From Candidatus Pelagisphaera phototrophica (GTDB lineage Bacteria; Verrucomicrobiota; Verrucomicrobiia; Opitutales; Opitutaceae): a stretch of DNA of 64,000 nt. This document shows, one piece after another, positions 12,235-40,579 of the stretch. A program made the translations under genes and the position numbers. The notes below the pieces were generated by a model. It saw nothing but the letters and a program-made list of their open reading frames with translations. It was not told where the DNA came from and did no database searches. The DNA is taken from contig NZ_CP076039.1 in the NCBI RefSeq assembly GCF_014529625.1, positions 3,038,001 through 3,102,000 on the forward strand, written 5' to 3'. Each line of letters starts with the position of its first letter. Positions within the stretch are counted from its first letter, which is position 1.

Positions 12235-13602
12235 CTACCTGCCAATTGCGTAGACGTTAAAACCAATATCAATTAGCTCTTTTCGATTCGCGATATTTCG
12301 CCCGTCGAAAATGAAGGCGGGTTTCATCATGCGGTCGTAGATTTTTCGATAATCCAGATCCCGGAATTCATCCCACTCGGTTAATATCGCTAGTGCATGA
12401 GCCCCTTCAACTGCCTCGTAGGCGTCACTGCAGACTTCAATTTTTTCTTCATGGTTGGGCTCACTCTTCGCTCCGAGGTCTAAATAGATTTGATCCGAGG
12501 TCACTTTCGGATCATAAATCGCCAAGCTGGCTTCCTCTTCAAGAAGATCCCGACCGACATATATTGCAGGCGATTCCCGCGTGTCATTTGTATCTTTTTT
12601 GAACGCAAATCCAAGAATCGCTATCCGCTTGCCGTTAACGGTGTTGAAGAGTGAATTAATAATACGATTGGAGAATCGCCGCTTTTGCCAGTCATTCATA
12701 CCGATGACAGATCTCCAGTATTGCGCTACTTCTGGAAGCCCAAAATGTTCACACAAATAAACCAAATTGAGCAGGTCTTTCTGGAAACAGGACCCGCCAA
12801 ACCCGACTGACGACTTCAAGAATTTTGACCCAATTCTGGAATCCTTACCGATCGCAGAGGCTACTTCATCCACATTCGCTCCCGTTTCCTCGCACAAGGC
12901 AGATATTGAATTAATGCTGGAAATTCTCTGGGCTAGAAAGGCATTCGCCACCAGCTTTGACAATTCAGATGACCATAAATTGGTTTGAATAATTTTATCC
13001 CTCGAAATCCAAGTTGCATATACACCTGCCAGGGTTTCCATCGCCGCCTTACCTTCAGGCGTTTCCTCACCCCCGATAAGAACGCGATCTGGATCGTCAA
13101 GGTCCTCCATGGCCGTACCTTCCGCAAGAAATTCAGGATTGGAAAGCACCTGAAAACTAATGCTGTCGCTAGAATTAGCACAAAGTACCGCTTTCAACGA
13201 CTCTGCAGTCCTTACGGGAATCGTTGATTTTTCTACAACAATTTTTGATCTGTCTGAGTGTGCCGCGATGTCACGGGCGCAAAGTTCGACATATTTCAGA
13301 TCTGCCGCCCTGCCCGCAGCCGCACCGTAGGTTTTTGTAGGAGTTCCGACACTTACGAAGATGACGTCGGCCTCGCGGATTGCGGTCACCTTGTCAGTCG
13401 TAAAAAACAAATTTGTGCCACGGGACGACATTACGATCTCATCCAATCCCGGCTCAAAAACAGGAAGCTCGTCCGAATTCCAAGCGGCGATCCTGGCTTC
13501 GTTAATGTCCGCAACCGTAACTGTAATATGAGGACACTTGTGAGCGATCATCGCCATAGTTGGACCACCTACGTAACCCGCTCCTAAACAACAAATTTTC
13601 AT
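12235..13602 (-). CDS. UDP-glucose 6-dehydrogenase, eukaryote-like type
   Basis: This enzyme oxidises UDP-glucose to UDP-glucuronate with two NAD+, supplying precursors for capsule, exopolysaccharide or glycan modification. The 455-residue protein starts with the Rossmann motif [14 protein letters not shown], has VGTPTKTYG and [13 protein letters not shown], the segment [11 protein letters not shown], the catalytic cysteine in [10 protein letters not shown] and the C-terminal FDGRNI. The opening [20 protein letters not shown] and the [13 protein letters not shown] block resemble animal and plant UGDH more than E. coli Ugd. This type also occurs in Planctomycetes and Verrucomicrobia. The ATG at 13602 is preferred over one at 13617 because the conserved beta strand begins directly at MKIC. 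Confidence 0.9.
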
Positions 13603-13860
13603 ACTAAATAAGCTCAAACACTAAGGAGAAATAGACCGTCAAAACCGATCTCTGACAAGTGATATAAAAGTGATCAATCGATTTCGGCCAATTTTACCTA
13701 GAATCGACATCTACCTCCATTTCATTATGAGAATTTTCATCTTCTTGGTCCGCGTACCCAAGTTTGAATAAGACAGTCCGCTGCCCCGTCCTAGGCTTAA
13801 ACTCACTATTCAACTGTTTAGATTTGCAGAACTGGAGCGTTTTCACTCTCTTCGTCATCA

Positions 13861-32529: not shown

Positions 32530-33410
32530 GTGGTGTATAACAAGCTAGTAACTGCCAAAGAACGAACTCTTAAAACTGAACTTCCCAACCCTTCCTTCCC
32601 ACAGCATGAAACCCATTACTATTTTTTTCTATCGATCGTCACTGGACTCTCTCTAATCGGATGCAAAAAACCGAGTGCAGTCACCAAAGGTGAAGAGGAT
32701 GACAAAGGAATAGAGGATATCGTAGCCATACCTGTAAAGGTCGCCGCTGCAAAAAGCGGTCCGATTCTCATCCTATCTCGAATTCGACTCGATTTTGGAG
32801 ACTGAAAGCGCCGCCGCCGTAATGGCCGAAGTGGGCTATTCTGTTGAAGCGGGACAGGTCATCGCGCAGCTCGAAAATGAGGAACAAGAAGTTAATGTGC
32901 GATAGTCGCTTTCCCGCTACCAGCACCTTCAGTCGAAATTCAAGTGCACCGAGAATCTGTTCAAATAAAACCTCATCAATCAGCAAGAATACGATACCGA
33001 AGTCTTCGATCCGTGGACGGTCTCGTCGCGGTCGAGACGGAAGACGACATGCAGAGCACGGAAACGAACATCACTCTCGAACGGGAAAAAGCAAATCAAT
33101 ACGGAATTGAGACGCAGATGATTTCGGGTGCAATTTCCTATACCATCCGAGGCAATCAAGTGGGTTACTATTATGACAGCAATGGACGCCGCAATCGTAT
33201 CCGTATATGGTTGGGTAAAAATGATCGGGAAAGTATCAATCATGTCCGTAAATTCCCTTTCGAAGGCTCAGATGGAGCCCTCGTGCCACTCGCTTCACTA
33301 TCCTACGAAAGCGGTGCCAGAGCGATTCGTCGTCAAGACCGGAAAACGGTTATGCGAGTACAGGGAATTGCTACCGAAGAAGACTCCACTGAATTATTGA
33401 AACAGCGTAC
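32530..33410 (+). pseudogene. RND efflux operon remnant (adaptor fused by deletion to permease)
   Basis: The region holds scrambled pieces of a tripartite efflux pump in several frames. First comes an adaptor lipoprotein leader (SIVTGLSLIGCKKPSAVTKG, then DIVAIPVKVAAAKSGPI). Then, after losses, the lipoyl-like segment ESAAAVMAEVGYSVEAGQVI with AQLENEEQEV and a hairpin piece (RYQHLQSKFKCTENLFK, INQQEYDTEVFD). From about 33040 the sequence switches to the periplasmic porter domain of an RND permease (REKANQYGIETQMISGAISY, DGALVPLASLSYESGARAIR, TVMRVQGIATEEDSTELL). Stop codons and frame changes separate the pieces and most of both genes is gone. It ends against the ankyrin gene. Confidence 0.75.
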
Positions 33411-33414
33411 TTTG

Positions 33415-34893
33415 CTAGTTCGCGTAGTTCGTGTGGTTTGGCTTAGGACCAGAAGGTGGTTCAATTCCGTGTCTAGCCATCACCCCAATAATCGCTTCCA
33501 CCGTCTCAAACGAAGGCTTAAAGTTTCCAGGACGGTAACCTTGCGCGATTAGCAAAGGAGTCCGGCCGTCATCATTTTTCGTATTCCAAATATTGATGTC
33601 CGACCCTAATTCATCGAGGTAGTAGACCATTGAGGGGATATTCTTCAGCGCCGCTCCATGCATCGCGGTCTCTCCATTTCTATCTACCGTATTGATATCT
33701 ACTCCCAGAGAAACGATGAGTTTCGTGGCTTTCAAGCATTCGGCTTCATTTCCAGCTTCTTCCTCGGGAGCCCTACTTCCGACGCCCGCCGCCGCTAGAA
33801 ACGCTGTCGTGCCTTGATTGTTTGGAATGTGCGGATCCGCACCGAGCTCTAGGAGCAACTTCATATAGGGAACGTCCGCCCTATCGGAGGCTAGAAAGAA
33901 AGCTGTCGCCCCAAAATCTCTATTCTTGACGCTTCCCTTACCTTTCTCGAGTCGACAATTCACATCAGCCCCTCGGGCGACCAGCTCGCGAATAAACTGT
34001 TCACTGTTGCGTAAGCCAGAGCCGCGCGGTGCAGGATCTCCACTAGCCGATTCTCCGATATCCGGTTTACGTATCCATGTAAGGGCATGCAAAACGGAGT
34101 ATCCTGTGCGAATATCGTTTGGATCTGCTCCCCTGTCTAAAAGCTCAATCGCGAGATCAAAGTGACCATTTTCCGCTGCCAGCATGAGAGGGCTAGTCCC
34201 TGACATGGGAAGCTTCCCGAAGAATCGCTCTGGACTCATCACCGCATTAATGTCCGCTCCTGCATCAAGGAGCATGTGCGTCACTTCATGTTCACCATTT
34301 CGCACAGCGAAAAACAAAGGCGTGTATCCAGAATACTCTAGAGGAGTCGTAAAATCCGCTCCATTTTCGAGAAGTTCGCGGACCACGCTAGCATGCCCCT
34401 CAGCGGCAGCCCACATAACGGCAGTCTGATCACGGCTTTCTTGGGCATCGATCTCGGCTCCCGCATCCAGGAGGGCTTTGACAGCGCCAATCTTTCCGGT
34501 ACGCGATGCGGTCATCAACGCGGTTTCGCCTCCTCTGGCAGAGCTATTCGGATCCGCCCCCGCTTTGAGCAGTCTCGAGACGATCGCTTCATTGCCATTC
34601 AGGCACGCTAAATAAAGAGGGGTGATTCCATATCGATTCTTTATAGTCGAGCTGGCCCCTCGCTCGACCAACTCGTTTACGAGATCGGCCTTGTCATGGT
34701 AAGTCGCCCAATGCAGCGCGCTCATCCCATCAACCTGAGTCGCATTGATGTCCCCTTCCTCAATAATTAAACTCAATGTATCAAAGGCCCCTGCCTCAAC
34801 CGCATCGGCCAGTTTCGAATCTGGTGCGGCCTGCAGCGTGCCCAAGAGAAGAACGAAAACAGAGAGGGAGGTGGGATATGTTTTTATCTTCAT
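33415..34893 (-). CDS. Secreted ankyrin-repeat protein in the DUF1592/DUF1552 operon
   Basis: A 492-residue protein with a signal peptide (MKIKTYPTSLSVFVLLLGTL, cleaved near LQAAPDS). The rest is about ten ankyrin repeats, each built on the GxTPLxxAxxxGxxxxVxxLLxxGADxN pattern; examples are GMSALHWATYHDKADLVNEL, GITPLYLACLNGNEAIVSRL and GYTPLFFAVRNGEHEVTHML. The repeat array suggests a periplasmic or surface binding scaffold. It lies 42 bases downstream of the DUF1552 gene, which itself follows the DUF1592 gene by 12 bases, so all three are probably one transcript. Partner binding to one of the other two products is an inference. Confidence 0.85.
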   Translation of the reverse strand: MKIKTYPTSLSVFVLLLGTLQAAPDSKLADAVEAGAFDTLSLIIEEGDINATQVDGMSALHWATYHDKADLVNELVERGASSTIKNRYGITPLYLACLNGNEAIVSRLLKAGADPNSSARGGETALMTASRTGKIGAVKALLDAGAEIDAQESRDQTAVMWAAAEGHASVVRELLENGADFTTPLEYSGYTPLFFAVRNGEHEVTHMLLDAGADINAVMSPERFFGKLPMSGTSPLMLAAENGHFDLAIELLDRGADPNDIRTGYSVLHALTWIRKPDIGESASGDPAPRGSGLRNSEQFIRELVARGADVNCRLEKGKGSVKNRDFGATAFFLASDRADVPYMKLLLELGADPHIPNNQGTTAFLAAAGVGSRAPEEEAGNEAECLKATKLIVSLGVDINTVDRNGETAMHGAALKNIPSMVYYLDELGSDINIWNTKNDDGRTPLLIAQGYRPGNFKPSFETVEAIIGVMARHGIEPPSGPKPNHTNYAN

Positions 34894-34935
34894 CTCTTAG
34901 TTAGCTCTGCAGTGGGGATTCAACCAAAGATTCGT

Positions 34936-36282
34936 TTAGACCGAAAGCGGTTCAAACAGATCGTTGATCATTCCGTCACTATCGCCAAACGAATCGATTT
35001 TCACCCCAACCTTGTCGAGAAGAGTCAGATGCAAGTTCGCTAAAGGCGTAGGCTTGTCATACCGAATGTGGCGATTTCCCTTCATCCCTCCGGAGGCTCC
35101 ACCCGCAACGATGCAAGGCAGATTCGTGTGATCATGAACATTGGGATTGCCAATACCGCTTCCGTAAAGAATTAGCACATTGTCTAACAATGAGCCGTTA
35201 CCTTCTCGAGTATTCTTCAATTTCTCCAAATATTCCGCAAACAAGGAAACATGAAATGCATTGATCTTAGACATGCGCTCAATCTTATCCGGATTGTCAC
35301 CATGGTGCGAAAGTGGATGGTGCGGATCGGAAACACCGATTTCAGGATACGAGCGATTACTGGTTTCGCGCGCAATTTGAAAAGTGGAAATTCGTGTAAT
35401 GTCACCTTGATACGCCAGTAGTTGGAGATCGAACATTAGACGTGCATGATCCGCATACATCGCTGGAACTCCCATAGGGCGTTCGAGATCTGGCAATGGG
35501 TTGTCTTTCGAATCTAATTCCGCTTTCTGTATTCGTCTTTCAACTTCACGTATGGCGTCCAAATACTCTGTTAAACGTGCTCGGTCACGAACACCCAAGT
35601 CACGCTTCATGCGTTTCATATCTTCTGTTATCGAATCGAGTAGGCTCGCACGCTTCCTCAAAGCCTCCCGTCTTTCCTCAGGAGTCCCGCCTTCACCAAA
35701 AAGGTTTTCAAAAACGATGCGCGGGTGGGCTTCCGCCGGTAGTGGAGTTGTAGGGGAAGACCAAGAAAGATTGTTTTGATACACGCAAGCGTATCCATTG
35801 TCGCACTGGCCAACCGTCTCCATCAAATCCATGGCTAGCTCTAGTGAGGGAAGTTGGGTTTCCTGTCCGATTTGCTTAGCAGCAACTTGGTCCGCAGTAG
35901 TCCCAAGGTAATAGTCTGAACTCTCGGTCACTTTCGCCTTCGCAGCGCTCAAGAACGAAGAATTCGAAGTCGCGTGCGACCCCGGGTAAGCAGGTTTCAA
36001 ATCCATATTCGTCAACACCGTTGTGTGGTCTTTAACGGGAGAGAGTGAATCGAGAATCGGCGAGAGCTTATCGAGCGTGTCGTCGCTCCCAGGCGTCCAT
36101 CTTGATTGGTCACAGCCCATTGGCATGAAAACGTAGCCGAGACGCCGCACCCCGTTGGCTGCCGTTCTCGAGGTAGCAGTGGCGGCAGGAACCATCGCAT
36201 CGAGTAGCGGCAATGCGAACGACGCTCCCACGCCTTTTAGAAAGGTTCTCCGGGGTATATACCTTTTAGTTATGAATTTCAT
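34936..36282 (-). CDS. DUF1552 protein, Tat-exported
   Basis: A 448-residue protein of the DUF1552 family, abundant in Planctomycetes and Verrucomicrobia and nearly always next to a DUF1592 gene. The N-terminus has a twin-arginine signal (YIPRRTFLKGVGASFALPLL), indicating export in a folded state, which often means a cofactor is loaded in the cytoplasm. Visible conserved blocks are YVFMPMGCDQSRWTPG, SNSSFLSAAKAKVTES, the helix RARLTEYLDAIREVERRIQK, and, towards the end, LILYGSGIGNPNVHDHTNLP with His/Asp residues reminiscent of alkaline-phosphatase or DUF1501-like folds. The reaction is unknown. Spacing of 12 bases to the DUF1592 gene indicates an operon. Confidence 0.88.
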   Translation of the reverse strand: MKFITKRYIPRRTFLKGVGASFALPLLDAMVPAATATSRTAANGVRRLGYVFMPMGCDQSRWTPGSDDTLDKLSPILDSLSPVKDHTTVLTNMDLKPAYPGSHATSNSSFLSAAKAKVTESSDYYLGTTADQVAAKQIGQETQLPSLELAMDLMETVGQCDNGYACVYQNNLSWSSPTTPLPAEAHPRIVFENLFGEGGTPEERREALRKRASLLDSITEDMKRMKRDLGVRDRARLTEYLDAIREVERRIQKAELDSKDNPLPDLERPMGVPAMYADHARLMFDLQLLAYQGDITRISTFQIARETSNRSYPEIGVSDPHHPLSHHGDNPDKIERMSKINAFHVSLFAEYLEKLKNTREGNGSLLDNVLILYGSGIGNPNVHDHTNLPCIVAGGASGGMKGNRHIRYDKPTPLANLHLTLLDKVGVKIDSFGDSDGMINDLFEPLSV

Positions 36283-36294
36283 AGTATTTACTCT

Positions 36295-38979
36295 CTATTG
36301 CGAACGGATTGCTACGTAATCACCGTCTGGTTTAGCTCTCATCTGAAACGGCACGCTTTTCACGATACCTAGTATTATCGACGAAAACCTGTATTCGTTT
36401 GATCGTGCGTTTCTCACGATCCCCCGAACTGCTGGGGCGTCATGGGCTTCGATTCCCCTACCTAGCGCAAATGTAAGCAATTTTTCACTTAAAGTACGAA
36501 CAAAAAGTTCCGGGCGCTCCAATAGGCCCTCCTCGAGCGGCCCTACTCCGTTGAAAACGCTTCCATCGGGCAATCCGCCCGATACATCAATCGACGTACC
36601 ATCTTCGTATTCCCTCCAGCGGCCAACGGCATCGAAATTCTCCAATGCAAATCCCACAGGATCCATCAGGTTGTGGCAGCCGGCACACGCCGGATTCTCA
36701 CGATGTTCCGCCAATTGCTCCCTCATTGAAAGCGTCGCATCCACTTTATTCTCCTCAAGAGCGGGAATGTTCGGAGGGGGCGGGGGTGGGGGCGTTCCTA
36801 TTATGTTTTCTAGAATCCAGCTTCCTCGGATAACCGGTGAGGTTCGCGTTGCGTAAGAAGTAACTGTAAGGATACTGCCTTGTCGAAGCAACCCACCTCG
36901 ATTGTGATCCAGATCAAGACTGACCCGGCGGAACCGGCTACCTGCAATGTTTGGGATGTCGTAATGGTAGGCCAATCGCTCGTCAAGAAAAGTATAGTCC
37001 GATTTTAGCAAATCCAGGACGCTTCGATCCTCCCTCATTACACTTTCGAAAAACAGCTCTGTCTCTTTTCGAAAGGACTGCCTCAAATTATCATCGAAGT
37101 CTGGATACAACCTCGAATCGGGCACAACCGAATCCAAGTTTCGCAGATGCAACCATTGGCTCGCAAAATTATCTACTAGGTTAACCGCCTTCTCGTCGTC
37201 AAGCATCCGGGCTACCTGTGCTTCCAGAACTCCGGGATTACGAAGTTTGCCCGCAATCGCCAAATCTAGCAGTTCCTCATCAGGCAAACTGCTCCAGAGG
37301 AAGAAGGACAATCGGCTCGCTAATTCCAAGTCACTGATCCGATAAGCCTCGCCGGGCTTCGAACCCGCGGGATCTTTCTCCACTCGAAACAAAAACTCAG
37401 GGCTCACGAGAATGGAACTCAAAGCCATCTCAATGCCAGATTCAAATCCACCCCCTTCCTTACCTTCCTTGAAGAATTCCATCGGGCGCTTTAGATCCGC
37501 ATTGGAAATAGAACGGCGATAAGCCAGCTTCATCAGGTTCGCGAGGATCTCGCGGGCAACGGACTCCTCCGCACTCTCATCGGAAGGATGCTTTATGAAG
37601 ATCTTTTTCCGGCTAGGAGTATCTCCTGCCCCTTTTGCCTCAAAAGGACCCGTAATGGAAATTTGATATACTGCAGGTGTAAGACGCGGGTGACGGTGAT
37701 GATTGTAATGGGCACGGAAGGGCTCTCGCTTAATTTCCAATAGAGAGTACGGAGTTTGCAAAAACGTCACCCCTAGTTTCCTTGGACCTGCCTTCGCACT
37801 GAATCGCGTCTTTAAGTGTTTATCCAATTGGCTATGATCTCGAATGCCTTTGGGAAGATCTATTGTAAACCGTTTCACCAGGGATCGATCGAGAAGGATC
37901 TCCATTTCGTGAGTCTCCTTCAGTCCTTCCACGTGCTCATTGCGATCACGTGTAAGAAGCACTTCGATTTCGTATTCACCATCTTGGGGAAACGTATAGT
38001 CGATGAGGGTACCGCCACGGGTGCCAATCGGAAGTCCGTCAACATGTTTTTCCTGCGTAACATCTGGACGGATACGATAGGTATCTCCTCTTGGAGAACG
38101 GTAGGGCGTTCCCACTGCTAAGCGGCTGATCTTCTGAGCCGCTGAAATATACCGGTCGAGCAAGCTCGGGGAAAGCGCTCCCACTGTGACGTTATCAAAA
38201 CCATGGCTCTCATCGTCCTTCGGGAGCAAGCTCTTCGCATCGATGTTGACTGCGAGAAGATCGCGAATCGCGTTCTGATACTCGGTTCGATTCAAACGAC
38301 GAAACGTCTCAACGCGTCCCGGCTTCGGGTGAATTGAGGCGTGGGCGTCCAGCGATTCAGTAATCGAAGCGAGCACCGCATCATAAGTAGCCTCGCTTGG
38401 CCGCTTCCGGTCGGGTGGAGGCATTTGACGTGAATCTAGCCGTTTGATCACCTTCTCCCACAATTCAGGATTTTCCTCTGAATCCTCGAGCGAAATTCCT
38501 TCCAAGACCAAGTCGCCCTTTCTTTCATCCGGATTGTGACAACTGACACAATACTGATTTACCAGCCCATGCTTGGAAGAAATGATCGGATCTCGTTCAT
38601 CCCCGTTGTCCGACAATCCAATCAATTTTCCTTCCAGCCATTCCGCTACCGATTCGAGTTCAGATTCCCGAGGGCGTTTCACATCTTCCTCTTCTTCGGG
38701 CGGCATTTCGCGTTCCCGCAGCATCCAGGCCACCTCATCCCAAACCTCAAAATGCTGGTCAACTCCAGTCCCCAAGAGGGTTTCGAGATCGAGTTTTCCC
38801 TTTTTCTTGTCTGGATTGTGGCAACTGACACAGTATTCGTTAACGAAATCGAGAAGAGGCTCCTCGATCGCGTAATCTTCTCCGCTCGTTTTCGATGAAA
38901 AGAAAAACAAAGAAACGCCACAAATCGCTGAGGAGAATTTTGCGCGTAAGGCAACTGGGATATAGGTCGCACAGAGCAT
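36295..38979 (-). CDS. DUF1592/PSD1-type multidomain cytochrome protein
   Basis: An 894-residue exported protein. After a hydrophobic leader come two planctomycete-type cytochrome c motifs, CVSCHNPDKKKGKLDLE near residue 50 and CVSCHNPDERKGDLVLE near residue 144. Next are the DUF1587 segment (RLNRTEYQNAIRDLLAVNID near residue 230), a carbohydrate-binding-like insert, and the DUF1595, DUF1592, DUF1588 and DUF1585 blocks. DUF1588 carries a third heme motif, CAGCHNLMDPVGFALENFD near residue 765. The architecture suggests a periplasmic or surface electron-transfer protein, perhaps an oxidase or dehydrogenase, but no activity is established for the family to my knowledge. The doubled N-terminal cytochrome is a notable variation on the usual single one. 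It is the first gene of the operon. Confidence 0.88.
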   Translation of the reverse strand: MLCATYIPVALRAKFSSAICGVSLFFFSSKTSGEDYAIEEPLLDFVNEYCVSCHNPDKKKGKLDLETLLGTGVDQHFEVWDEVAWMLREREMPPEEEEDVKRPRESELESVAEWLEGKLIGLSDNGDERDPIISSKHGLVNQYCVSCHNPDERKGDLVLEGISLEDSEENPELWEKVIKRLDSRQMPPPDRKRPSEATYDAVLASITESLDAHASIHPKPGRVETFRRLNRTEYQNAIRDLLAVNIDAKSLLPKDDESHGFDNVTVGALSPSLLDRYISAAQKISRLAVGTPYRSPRGDTYRIRPDVTQEKHVDGLPIGTRGGTLIDYTFPQDGEYEIEVLLTRDRNEHVEGLKETHEMEILLDRSLVKRFTIDLPKGIRDHSQLDKHLKTRFSAKAGPRKLGVTFLQTPYSLLEIKREPFRAHYNHHRHPRLTPAVYQISITGPFEAKGAGDTPSRKKIFIKHPSDESAEESVAREILANLMKLAYRRSISNADLKRPMEFFKEGKEGGGFESGIEMALSSILVSPEFLFRVEKDPAGSKPGEAYRISDLELASRLSFFLWSSLPDEELLDLAIAGKLRNPGVLEAQVARMLDDEKAVNLVDNFASQWLHLRNLDSVVPDSRLYPDFDDNLRQSFRKETELFFESVMREDRSVLDLLKSDYTFLDERLAYHYDIPNIAGSRFRRVSLDLDHNRGGLLRQGSILTVTSYATRTSPVIRGSWILENIIGTPPPPPPPNIPALEENKVDATLSMREQLAEHRENPACAGCHNLMDPVGFALENFDAVGRWREYEDGTSIDVSGGLPDGSVFNGVGPLEEGLLERPELFVRTLSEKLLTFALGRGIEAHDAPAVRGIVRNARSNEYRFSSIILGIVKSVPFQMRAKPDGDYVAIRSQ

Positions 38980-39159: not shown

Positions 39160-40362
39160 CTAGCCTTGATTTAGGGCCTTTAGCTGCTCACTGAGCCAGA
39201 TCTTGCGTTTCCACCGGGTATTTTTTGAAGACATGTCGATAGAGTAGAGACTGTCGCCCATGTCCGGTTGCGGCAGGCTAAGGATACGACACAAATTTAG
39301 GGCGAGCCACTTTTCAATTTTTAGTACGACCATTTTCTTGCGAAGCCGCCCCTGAATATCGCGATTGAGCACCGTTGGAATGGTGTTGAGCGTAAGGATT
39401 TCGTCGATCGCCGTATTGGCCATTTTTACTCGACCCTCCTCGCTTGCGTAAAAGTGCGTCAGAGCAAAAACAGTCTTACCTGGGTTTACTTGCTTCAATA
39501 GCTGACAGGATTTAACTACCGTCGAACCAGTCCGCACCATATCATCGAAAAGAACGATGTCATGACCTTGAATATCCTCGAGCTTCGTTTCACTTTCCTC
39601 ATGGATTTTGATTTCAACCTGCCGCTCACTAATCCTTTCCTTGTCGAGAAGGACAAACTTTGCCTTGTCGAGTCCAAGTTGGGCAAACATCTCCTTAACG
39701 AACTCCCTGGCTCCCTTGTCTGGGGCGCAAAGCGCCAACCCTTCTCCAGCATCTTCGTAGTCGACAATATCTGAATTCAACAAGTAGTCGACGTAGATGT
39801 CATAGGGAATCAAGTTGTAAAACTTCCCATCGAAGACTTCGCTAAACATTGCTTGCACTGAGAAAGAGTGATTGTGGACCGTTAGCACTCGATCCACTCC
39901 CGCTAGCTTCAGCATCTGCGCGTACAGCTTCGCAGTAAAAAGCTGGCCATCGAATTTCTTGAGATCCTTCAGGTCGCGTTCAACTTCGGTTTTGCCCAAA
40001 TTCGGTCGCGGTCCTCGGTCTTGGGCACTGTAGTACAGATCGGGCTCTACGAGAATCACCTCCGCGGCGCCGTTCTCTTTCGCTGCCCGAGCAATCATCA
40101 AGTTTCGCATCGCGAGGCTCTGACGGCTCATCACGAGACTGCTCGTGCTGACGATTATAATGCTTTTTCCGCTCAGCTTGTTTCCGATTTCGGAAAAATC
40201 CTGCTCATCCGAAATGAAACGCGGACAGAATTCCGAATTGGCGAACCGCTTCATGCTGATGAGGTCCGCGACATCCTCCCCCTGACCCATCGCGAAGGCG
40301 ACGTCGATAGCGAACGGATCATCTGAGGAATTTCCAACGACAATGTATTTTGGTTCAGTCAT
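39160..40362 (-). CDS. Ribose-phosphate pyrophosphokinase-like protein
   Basis: A 400-residue relative of PRPP synthase, which makes 5-phosphoribosyl 1-pyrophosphate from ribose 5-phosphate and ATP for purine, pyrimidine, His and Trp synthesis. Support comes from the N-terminal FANSEFCPRF, the central VLTVHNHSFSVQAMFSEVFD (in place of the usual DLHSxQxQGFF), a flag-like region and the PRPP loop VLFDDMVRTGSTVVKS. It is about 85 residues longer than classical Prs, with an extended C-terminus after IQGRLRKKMVVLKI. The changed central motif makes it a divergent paralogue, and activity is less certain. The ATG at 40362 (MTEPKYIVVG) is preferred to an upstream in-frame start. Confidence 0.75.
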   Translation of the reverse strand: MTEPKYIVVGNSSDDPFAIDVAFAMGQGEDVADLISMKRFANSEFCPRFISDEQDFSEIGNKLSGKSIIIVSTSSLVMSRQSLAMRNLMIARAAKENGAAEVILVEPDLYYSAQDRGPRPNLGKTEVERDLKDLKKFDGQLFTAKLYAQMLKLAGVDRVLTVHNHSFSVQAMFSEVFDGKFYNLIPYDIYVDYLLNSDIVDYEDAGEGLALCAPDKGAREFVKEMFAQLGLDKAKFVLLDKERISERQVEIKIHEESETKLEDIQGHDIVLFDDMVRTGSTVVKSCQLLKQVNPGKTVFALTHFYASEEGRVKMANTAIDEILTLNTIPTVLNRDIQGRLRKKMVVLKIEKWLALNLCRILSLPQPDMGDSLYSIDMSSKNTRWKRKIWLSEQLKALNQG

Positions 40363-40579
40363 ACGGGGGAATTTCGATTTGGAAAACTCGGAACTTGGAG
40401 GAGCGTGCACGAGTATTTGAAAAAACAAGCAACGAGAACCAAAAGGGCGAGCTTTATTCGCTGCAAATGTTCATGTGGGAAGGGTTTGTTCGAAACGTTG
40501 ACTGACTCGCATAAGGTTGCGTCAAACGCGATGTTTCTCTTTCGTTAGAAAATCACTCAACACACCTCACCTTTTCCAT

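Follow-up and report, generated by a model that had tools for sequence, protein, structure and literature searches.

In the 64,000-nt window of the Candidatus Pelagisphaera phototrophica genome analysed here, which is the whole stretch to which all coordinates refer, three adjacent minus-strand genes encoding a DUF1592-type cytochrome protein, a DUF1552 protein and an ankyrin-repeat protein almost certainly form one conserved functional unit. They are transcribed in that order. The DUF1592-type gene (36295..38979, 894 amino acids) is separated by 12 bases from the DUF1552 (HXXSHH) gene (34936..36282, 448 amino acids), which is followed after 42 bases by the ankyrin gene (33415..34893, 492 amino acids). 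These coordinates confirm the gene arrangement of the original prediction, which had drawn a single operon from the common strand and the two short gaps, and the conservation reported below strongly supports the unit. A scan for sigma-70-like promoters had none in the two gaps and a single match, which lies within the ankyrin gene, the shuffled sequences giving 5.8 on average; the promoter and terminator scan had fewer matches than shuffles. When the window is compared with its near relative L087, the ratio of nonsynonymous to synonymous substitution rates is 0.13 for DUF1592, 0.08 for DUF1552 and 0.18 for the ankyrin gene, and all three look to be under purifying selection.

The retention of the ankyrin gene beside the pair, on which the original prediction had staked its operon, is what we find in related genomes. 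Among 38 genomes of near relatives (own genome included), an ankyrin orthologue occurs at 16 places in 13 other genomes, comprising all 10 other members of the genus that were examined, and DUF1552 lies directly upstream at every one of these 16 places. The next-best ankyrin match (genome G014, E 2e-24) has no DUF1552 in its stretch. A wider scan with DUF1552 took the best 80 of at least 550 relatives, so that its counts favour the cassette's own clade, and many of the loci end at contig edges. It placed an ankyrin gene after DUF1552 in 77 of the 80 loci (no more than 300 bases away in 68, and 370-1042 bases away in 9), and in the other three (L105, L127 and L162) the contig ends 113, 161 and 9 bases past DUF1552, respectively. 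DUF1592 stands upstream in 74 of the 80; three further loci (L088, L139 and L151) start at a contig edge and one (L149) has DUF1592 about 3 kb away. The DUF1592 and DUF1552 genes overlap by 4 bases in 50 of the 74 loci when the nearest in-frame ATG is taken as the start. The nearest named relatives are metagenome-assembled genomes labelled Opitutales and Opitutaceae, with a DUF1552 98-99% identical, and the named carriers include Adhaeretor mobilis, Singulisphaera sp. GP187 and Novosphingobium sp. KACC 22771. In three loci (L112, L116 and L122) a related small open reading frame occupies an enlarged gap between DUF1552 and the ankyrin gene; the one in L116 is an IS200-like (Y1) transposase (PF01797), which suggests that some of the larger gaps are insertions.

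Searches started from either end of the cassette recovered the same genomes. With the ankyrin protein alone as query, 10 of 387 Verrucomicrobiota genomes (own included) match at E ≤ 1e-37, all ten with DUF1552 upstream (about 1.4 kb away in G192), and seven weaker places (E 1e-28 to 4e-26) lack a flanking DUF1552 gene. Six of 294 Planctomycetota genomes match at E ≤ 1e-60, again all with DUF1552 upstream. DUF1552 alone retrieves the same 10 (at least 48% identity) and the same 6 genomes (at least 66%) from these samples, and where its identity is 46% or less an ankyrin gene is present in 0 of 32 flanks (1.5 kb, or less where the contig stops). At most 4 or 5 candidates per genome were scored in the phylum searches, and the cut-offs (E ≤ 1e-37, E ≤ 1e-60, 48% and 66% identity) were set after seeing the tables, the Planctomycetota search having been run at 1e-60. 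DUF1552 also occurs in 15 plasmid records; of the two examined, a Novosphingobium plasmid (L191) carries the full cassette and the other (L192) has no ankyrin gene. None was found in the phage records searched.

The phylogeny of DUF1552 gives the same picture. In a tree of 76 sequences (FastTree, midpoint root), the 28 ankyrin-linked copies all fall in one clade (support 0.979) that holds none of the other 48. This clade contains Verrucomicrobiota, Planctomycetota and the Novosphingobium plasmid copy, whose DUF1552 is just 41.5% identical; judged from these sequences, the cassette occurs as a unit in at least three bacterial phyla. The neighbouring clade of 33 sequences contains no ankyrin-linked copy, and no third gene was constant in 12 regions from it, in 5 of which the DUF1552 gene itself was missed. 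The simplest account would be a single, early recruitment of the ankyrin gene, which was then kept. Distances in the three gene trees correlate over 57 loci (r 0.82-0.87, species relatedness uncontrolled). The own genome (one contig, 4.09 Mb) has 16 DUF1592 and 16 DUF1552 places, and the other 15 of each, distributed over 14 stretches, have no ankyrin gene beside them; neither is any of its other ankyrin matches near a DUF1592/DUF1552 pair. It also holds DUF1501 at 23 places, several copies being short or interrupted by stops, and these make up a large paralogous set with DUF1592 and DUF1552.

The first product combines two PSCyt1 stretches, PSD3, a jelly-roll domain resembling a carbohydrate-binding module (CBM), PSD5, PSD4, PSCyt3 and PSD2. 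The series PSD3-PSD5-PSD4-PSCyt3-PSD2 is found in this order above the curated Pfam cut-offs, and all five domains are present in 52 of 52 homologues (E ≤ 0.1). As predicted, the protein has three CxxCH motifs, two in PSCyt1 (residues 50-54, 38818..38832, and residues 144-148, 38536..38550) and one in PSCyt3 (residues 765-769, 36673..36687). Going by the motifs, they are putative heme c sites, and their positions (50, 144 and 765) are identical in relative L069. The doubled N-terminal cytochrome noticed originally is thus real in the window, though confined to near relatives; of 62 uncut homologues, 13 carry three CxxCH motifs and the other 49 carry two. Met186 of the second PSCyt1 is invariant in two sets of aligned proteins (52/52 and 17/17), which fits an electron-transfer heme of the His/Met type. 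In PSCyt3 an invariant His759 lies close to the CxxCH motif, and no methionine conserved like this histidine was found in the aligned proteins. The AlphaFold2 model of the whole protein has a predicted local distance difference test (pLDDT) of 83 and a predicted template modelling score (pTM) of 0.80. Residues 292-450 (37630..38106), in which there is no Pfam match, are predicted to form a beta-sandwich of the jelly-roll type whose best structural matches are CBM36, CBM35 and CBM6 modules; the alignment to 6kjl_A by VIA-align covers 107 residues at 2.9 Å with a Z of 9.0, where unrelated TNF/C1q folds reach 8.5. Foldseek returned no match to the whole model at E ≤ 0.001, the VIA-align rows spanning residues 292-450 alone, and a sequence search for relatives of solved structure yielded none credible for DUF1592 or DUF1552.

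The second product matches Pfam HXXSHH/DUF1552 (PF07586) over residues 47-349 (model positions 1-307, E 3.8e-94) with 316 bits, the gathering threshold being 30. Its twin-arginine pair R11-R12 (36247..36252) is invariant in an alignment of 53 DUF1552 proteins (hereafter A2) and in the 16 copies of the own genome, in agreement with the predicted export by the twin-arginine translocation (Tat) pathway; for all three products, the export signals were assessed by visual inspection of the sequence. The fold is predicted to be that of the alkaline-phosphatase/sulfatase superfamily. The AlphaFold2 model (pLDDT 71, pTM 0.75) aligns by VIA-align with snake venom phosphodiesterase (7cba_B, Z 16.1, 249 residues, 4.3 Å) and with carrageenan sulfatases (Z above 15), its best Foldseek E-value is 1.2e-4, and profile comparison matches DUF1501 (E 1.2e-6) and sulfatases (E 1.2e-4), the aligned profile members having been assigned to these families by Pfam with two of each checked.

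The metal site of this fold is predicted to be altered in DUF1552. In sulfatases the acidic ligand is the D of S/T-D-N/H-G; it aligns with the glutamate of the DUF1501 motif GEFGR, and both align with Gly376 of DUF1552, within G374-S375-G376 (35155..35163). This position is glycine in 53 of 53 A2 proteins and 12 of 16 own copies, the remaining own copies having asparagine or a gap, so that an acid occurs in none of either set. The sulfatase motif C/S-x-P/A-x-R, present in neighbouring sulfatases, is likewise absent from the DUF1552 protein of the window. Histidines are well conserved instead: H322 and H326, the HxxxH core (35305..35319) of an HHPLSHH motif, and H383 (35134..35136), aligned with the C-terminal histidine of DUF1501 (GRDH), are invariant in all 53 and all 16 sequences, and H103 in 52 of 53 (one gap) and all 16. 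The register of H322-H327 against the DUF1501 motif W-D-x-H is uncertain by one or two residues. Since the acidic ligand appears lost and the site histidine-rich, DUF1552 is probably not an ordinary phosphatase or sulfatase.

The third product fits its original description as an ankyrin-repeat protein with a Sec-like leader: Ank_2 scores 200 bits in Pfam against a gathering threshold of 27.3, and the protein has a conserved tail (RPGNFKP). In some loci it carries an additional enzyme as its C-terminal domain, namely a BD-FAE esterase in L134, L156 (the complete genome of Adhaeretor mobilis) and L161 (E 3e-58 to 2e-66), or a 3-keto-disaccharide hydrolase (DUF1080) in L114 (E 5.6e-35). The Pfam fusion scan covered these four long open reading frames out of 79 plus the Novosphingobium one, and phmmer searches for both fused domains in all open reading frames of the 80 loci found no further fusion. 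A cytochrome fused to the ankyrin protein can be rejected, none of the 79 ankyrin frames having a CxxCH motif. In L115 the ankyrin gene shares 4 bases with a BD-FAE gene from the subfamily of the fused domains, and in L132 such a gene stands 72 bases upstream of DUF1592, the subfamily occurring in 7 of the 80 loci in all. On the Planctomyces SH-PL62 plasmid (L192), a related pair outside the ankyrin clade is arranged as DUF1592-DUF1552-DUF1080. The fusions, the neighbouring BD-FAE and DUF1080 genes and the CBM-like domain together point to a link with glycosides. The substrate, first given as unknown, is thereby narrowed toward this class by a few fusions and neighbours, the reaction being a matter of conjecture. 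The commonest neighbour clusters in the 80 loci, which were named by eye, Pfam confirming one or two members in each case, are sulfatase-like (13 loci), PSD1/PSCyt2-type (11) and DUF1501 (8). Since 13 of the 80 loci is the most in which any fourth gene recurs, we rejected a constant fourth member of the cassette. In L145, an open reading frame on the plus strand (12876-13799 of that locus), double-cupin-like by eye, shares 4 bases with the end of the ankyrin gene.

We tentatively favour, and would put at somewhat less than an even chance, a model in which all three products, once exported, work jointly in the cell envelope as a complex modifying glycosides, with the ankyrin protein as docking scaffold. 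The DUF1592 protein would be the redox subunit: its jelly-roll domain might bind the carbohydrate and one PSCyt3 heme would sit within the helical core, with electrons carried onward by one or two PSCyt1 hemes of the His/Met type at the N-terminus. The DUF1552 protein, exported in a folded state by Tat, would be either the catalytic or the substrate-holding partner. The ankyrin protein would be a dedicated scaffold holding this pair and, in some lineages, would bring the next enzyme (BD-FAE esterase or DUF1080 3-keto-disaccharide hydrolase) at its C-terminus. In a more specific version, the pair might oxidise a sugar unit, as LacABC does in forming 3-keto sugars, and the tethered hydrolase might cleave the product. 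The envelope redox complex put forward originally is plausible in the light of the three export-like N-termini; its redox character is read from the heme motifs, and contact between the proteins is presumed.

Several observations weigh against these conclusions. Two of the 80 loci (L130 and L150) have no DUF1592 in 10 kb upstream, and the ankyrin frame is broken in one genus member (G002, loci L076/L096) by three stop codons, through decay or an assembly error. At E ≤ 1e-15 the genome of Pelagicoccus mobilis (G416, L105) lacks any ankyrin match although its DUF1552 is 83% identical, the contig ending 113 bases past DUF1552, and from 7 to 12 strongly supported splits conflict in each pair of gene trees for the 57 loci. 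The broken frame and the apparent absence from P. mobilis are what could be expected if the ankyrin gene were a chance neighbour without functional link. We reject this idea as extremely improbable in view of the conservation, the single clade and the identical genome sets obtained with the independent ankyrin and DUF1552 queries. A functional link of another kind is conceivable, in which the ankyrin protein helps to mature or protect the heme-bearing DUF1592 protein, much as the ankyrin protein Cj1386 serves catalase in Campylobacter. Ankyrin genes stand beside those of heme enzymes at catalase loci, and all 77 loci with an ankyrin gene have it in last position, behind DUF1552. However, 15 other DUF1592 proteins of the own genome have equally conserved heme motifs and no adjoining ankyrin gene, and a chaperone would not be expected to be fused to carbohydrate enzymes, which leaves this explanation rather unlikely. 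The cassette could also serve respiration or stress, as an electron sink or in peroxide defence, its nearness to carbohydrate genes merely reflecting their abundance in such genomes. All 62 uncut DUF1592 copies have two or three CxxCH motifs, sulfatase-like and PSD1/PSCyt2-type genes are near just 13 and 11 of the 80 loci, and the cassette has no constant neighbour. The direct BD-FAE and DUF1080 fusions, by contrast, are no matter of gene density, and we regard a respiratory or protective role as quite improbable. The scaffolded glycoside-modifying complex has weak points of its own here: the fusions concern 4 of the 80 loci, most loci have no carbohydrate enzyme touching the cassette, the BD-FAE label of Pfam spans a broad group of alpha/beta-hydrolases, and the jelly-roll match is modest when its Z of 9.0 is set beside the 8.5 of the TNF/C1q folds.

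Alternatively, DUF1552 might function as a hydrolase (phosphatase, sulfatase or phosphodiesterase) whose metal site is unusual, the cytochromes doing no more than report or regulate redox state; the predicted fold, close to snake venom phosphodiesterase and carrageenan sulfatases, and the profile matches to DUF1501 and sulfatases would agree with such a function. The replacement of the sulfatase acidic ligand by Gly376, with no acid in the 53 or the 16 copies, and the missing C/S-x-P/A-x-R motif speak against it, and we consider it unlikely. More speculative, and in our view quite doubtful, is the proposal that DUF1552 is a redox metalloenzyme built on a sulfatase fold, in which a histidine-only site (candidate ligands H322, H326 and H383, with H103 as a fourth candidate, all present in 16 of 16 own copies) would bind one copper or iron and exchange electrons with the DUF1592 hemes. 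The altered metal site, which the favoured model assumes as well, is weakened by a mediocre structure prediction, with pLDDT below 50 at residues 99-106 (including H103), 117-126 and 153-180. Conservation of the histidines is also uneven, H344 being present in 53 of 53 A2 proteins but in 8 of 16 own copies and H327 invariant or nearly so in A2 and present in 10 of 16. If true, the metalloenzyme proposal would define a new class of heme-coupled carbohydrate oxidase, working like lytic polysaccharide monooxygenases or cellobiose dehydrogenase and unrelated to them, whose reaction would be finished by the ankyrin-tethered esterase or 3-keto-sugar hydrolase.

Around the cassette, a ribose-phosphate pyrophosphokinase-like gene lies upstream (39160-40428, minus strand), with a score of 112.6 bits for a family cut-off of 113, and is found upstream of the cassette in several genus relatives too. 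On the plus strand, 32944-33552 is an AcrB-family fragment (PF00873, E 6e-13), and the open reading frame 32530-32805, without Pfam match, resembles the start of a relative's longer frame. In L087 a full-length AcrB-family frame follows the ankyrin gene, and frames of L097 and L104 belong to the same cluster. The region 32530-33552 is likely to be the remnants of a resistance-nodulation-division (RND) efflux operon.

Genomes of this kind may encode dozens of PSCyt/PSD proteins, for which the cassette offers a self-contained three-gene version: its fusion partners point to a likely class of substrate, named strains carry it, and it reduces an open question on a large family to a few direct tests. 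It had been singled out originally as an undescribed system. This holds for the combination, in that, within a library of open-licence papers, a single search found none to join ankyrin with DUF1592, DUF1552, DUF1588, PSCyt1 or "planctomycete cytochrome", and further searches found none to describe the three-gene cassette, its apparent single origin or its fusions; it does not hold for the families, which were already known and of which the own genome alone has 16 places each.

Among known systems, the ankyrin genes Cj1386 and AnkB beside catalase likewise place an ankyrin gene next to that of a heme protein. Catalase, however, is no c-type cytochrome, and these loci are not known to have a counterpart of DUF1552. 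The PSCyt/PSD proteins of Planctomycetota and Verrucomicrobiota are closer in the kinds of their domains. A passage of a survey of Verrucomicrobia relates that PSCyt3 genes usually stand beside a family of unknown genes, unnamed there, and that nothing is known of PSCyt/PSD functions, carbohydrate metabolism being suspected (PMC5615132); PSD1 and PSC2 domains are given as occurring 41 times each in Rhodopirellula baltica in a passage of PMC2754498. The cassette differs from these proteins by its third, ankyrin gene, its separate clade and, in near relatives, its doubled PSCyt1. The DUF1800-DUF1501 pairs reported in part of PMC5122149 resemble it as operon pairs with a twin-arginine member, the DUF1501 protein, and DUF1501 profiles match both DUF1552 and sulfatases; they differ in their partner protein, and no ankyrin gene appears in that text. 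The glucoside 3-dehydrogenase LacABC is, like the system proposed here, a periplasmic sugar system with a linked DUF1080 protein, which in Caulobacter lies near LacABC and is proposed, in the section concerned of PMC9007349, to be a periplasmic 3'-ketolactose hydrolase. In the cassette this link is seen as the L114 fusion, and in the related pair of L192 as a third gene. Unlike LacABC, the three cassette products have no FAD-binding dehydrogenase domain of the LacA type (Pfam, E ≤ 0.001). A final likeness concerns Cellvibrio Cbp2D, in which, according to an excerpt of PMC8981238, a DUF1587 domain is combined with a pair of cytochrome domains bearing CxxCH motifs; CjX183, one of this pair, reduces a polysaccharide-oxidising enzyme.

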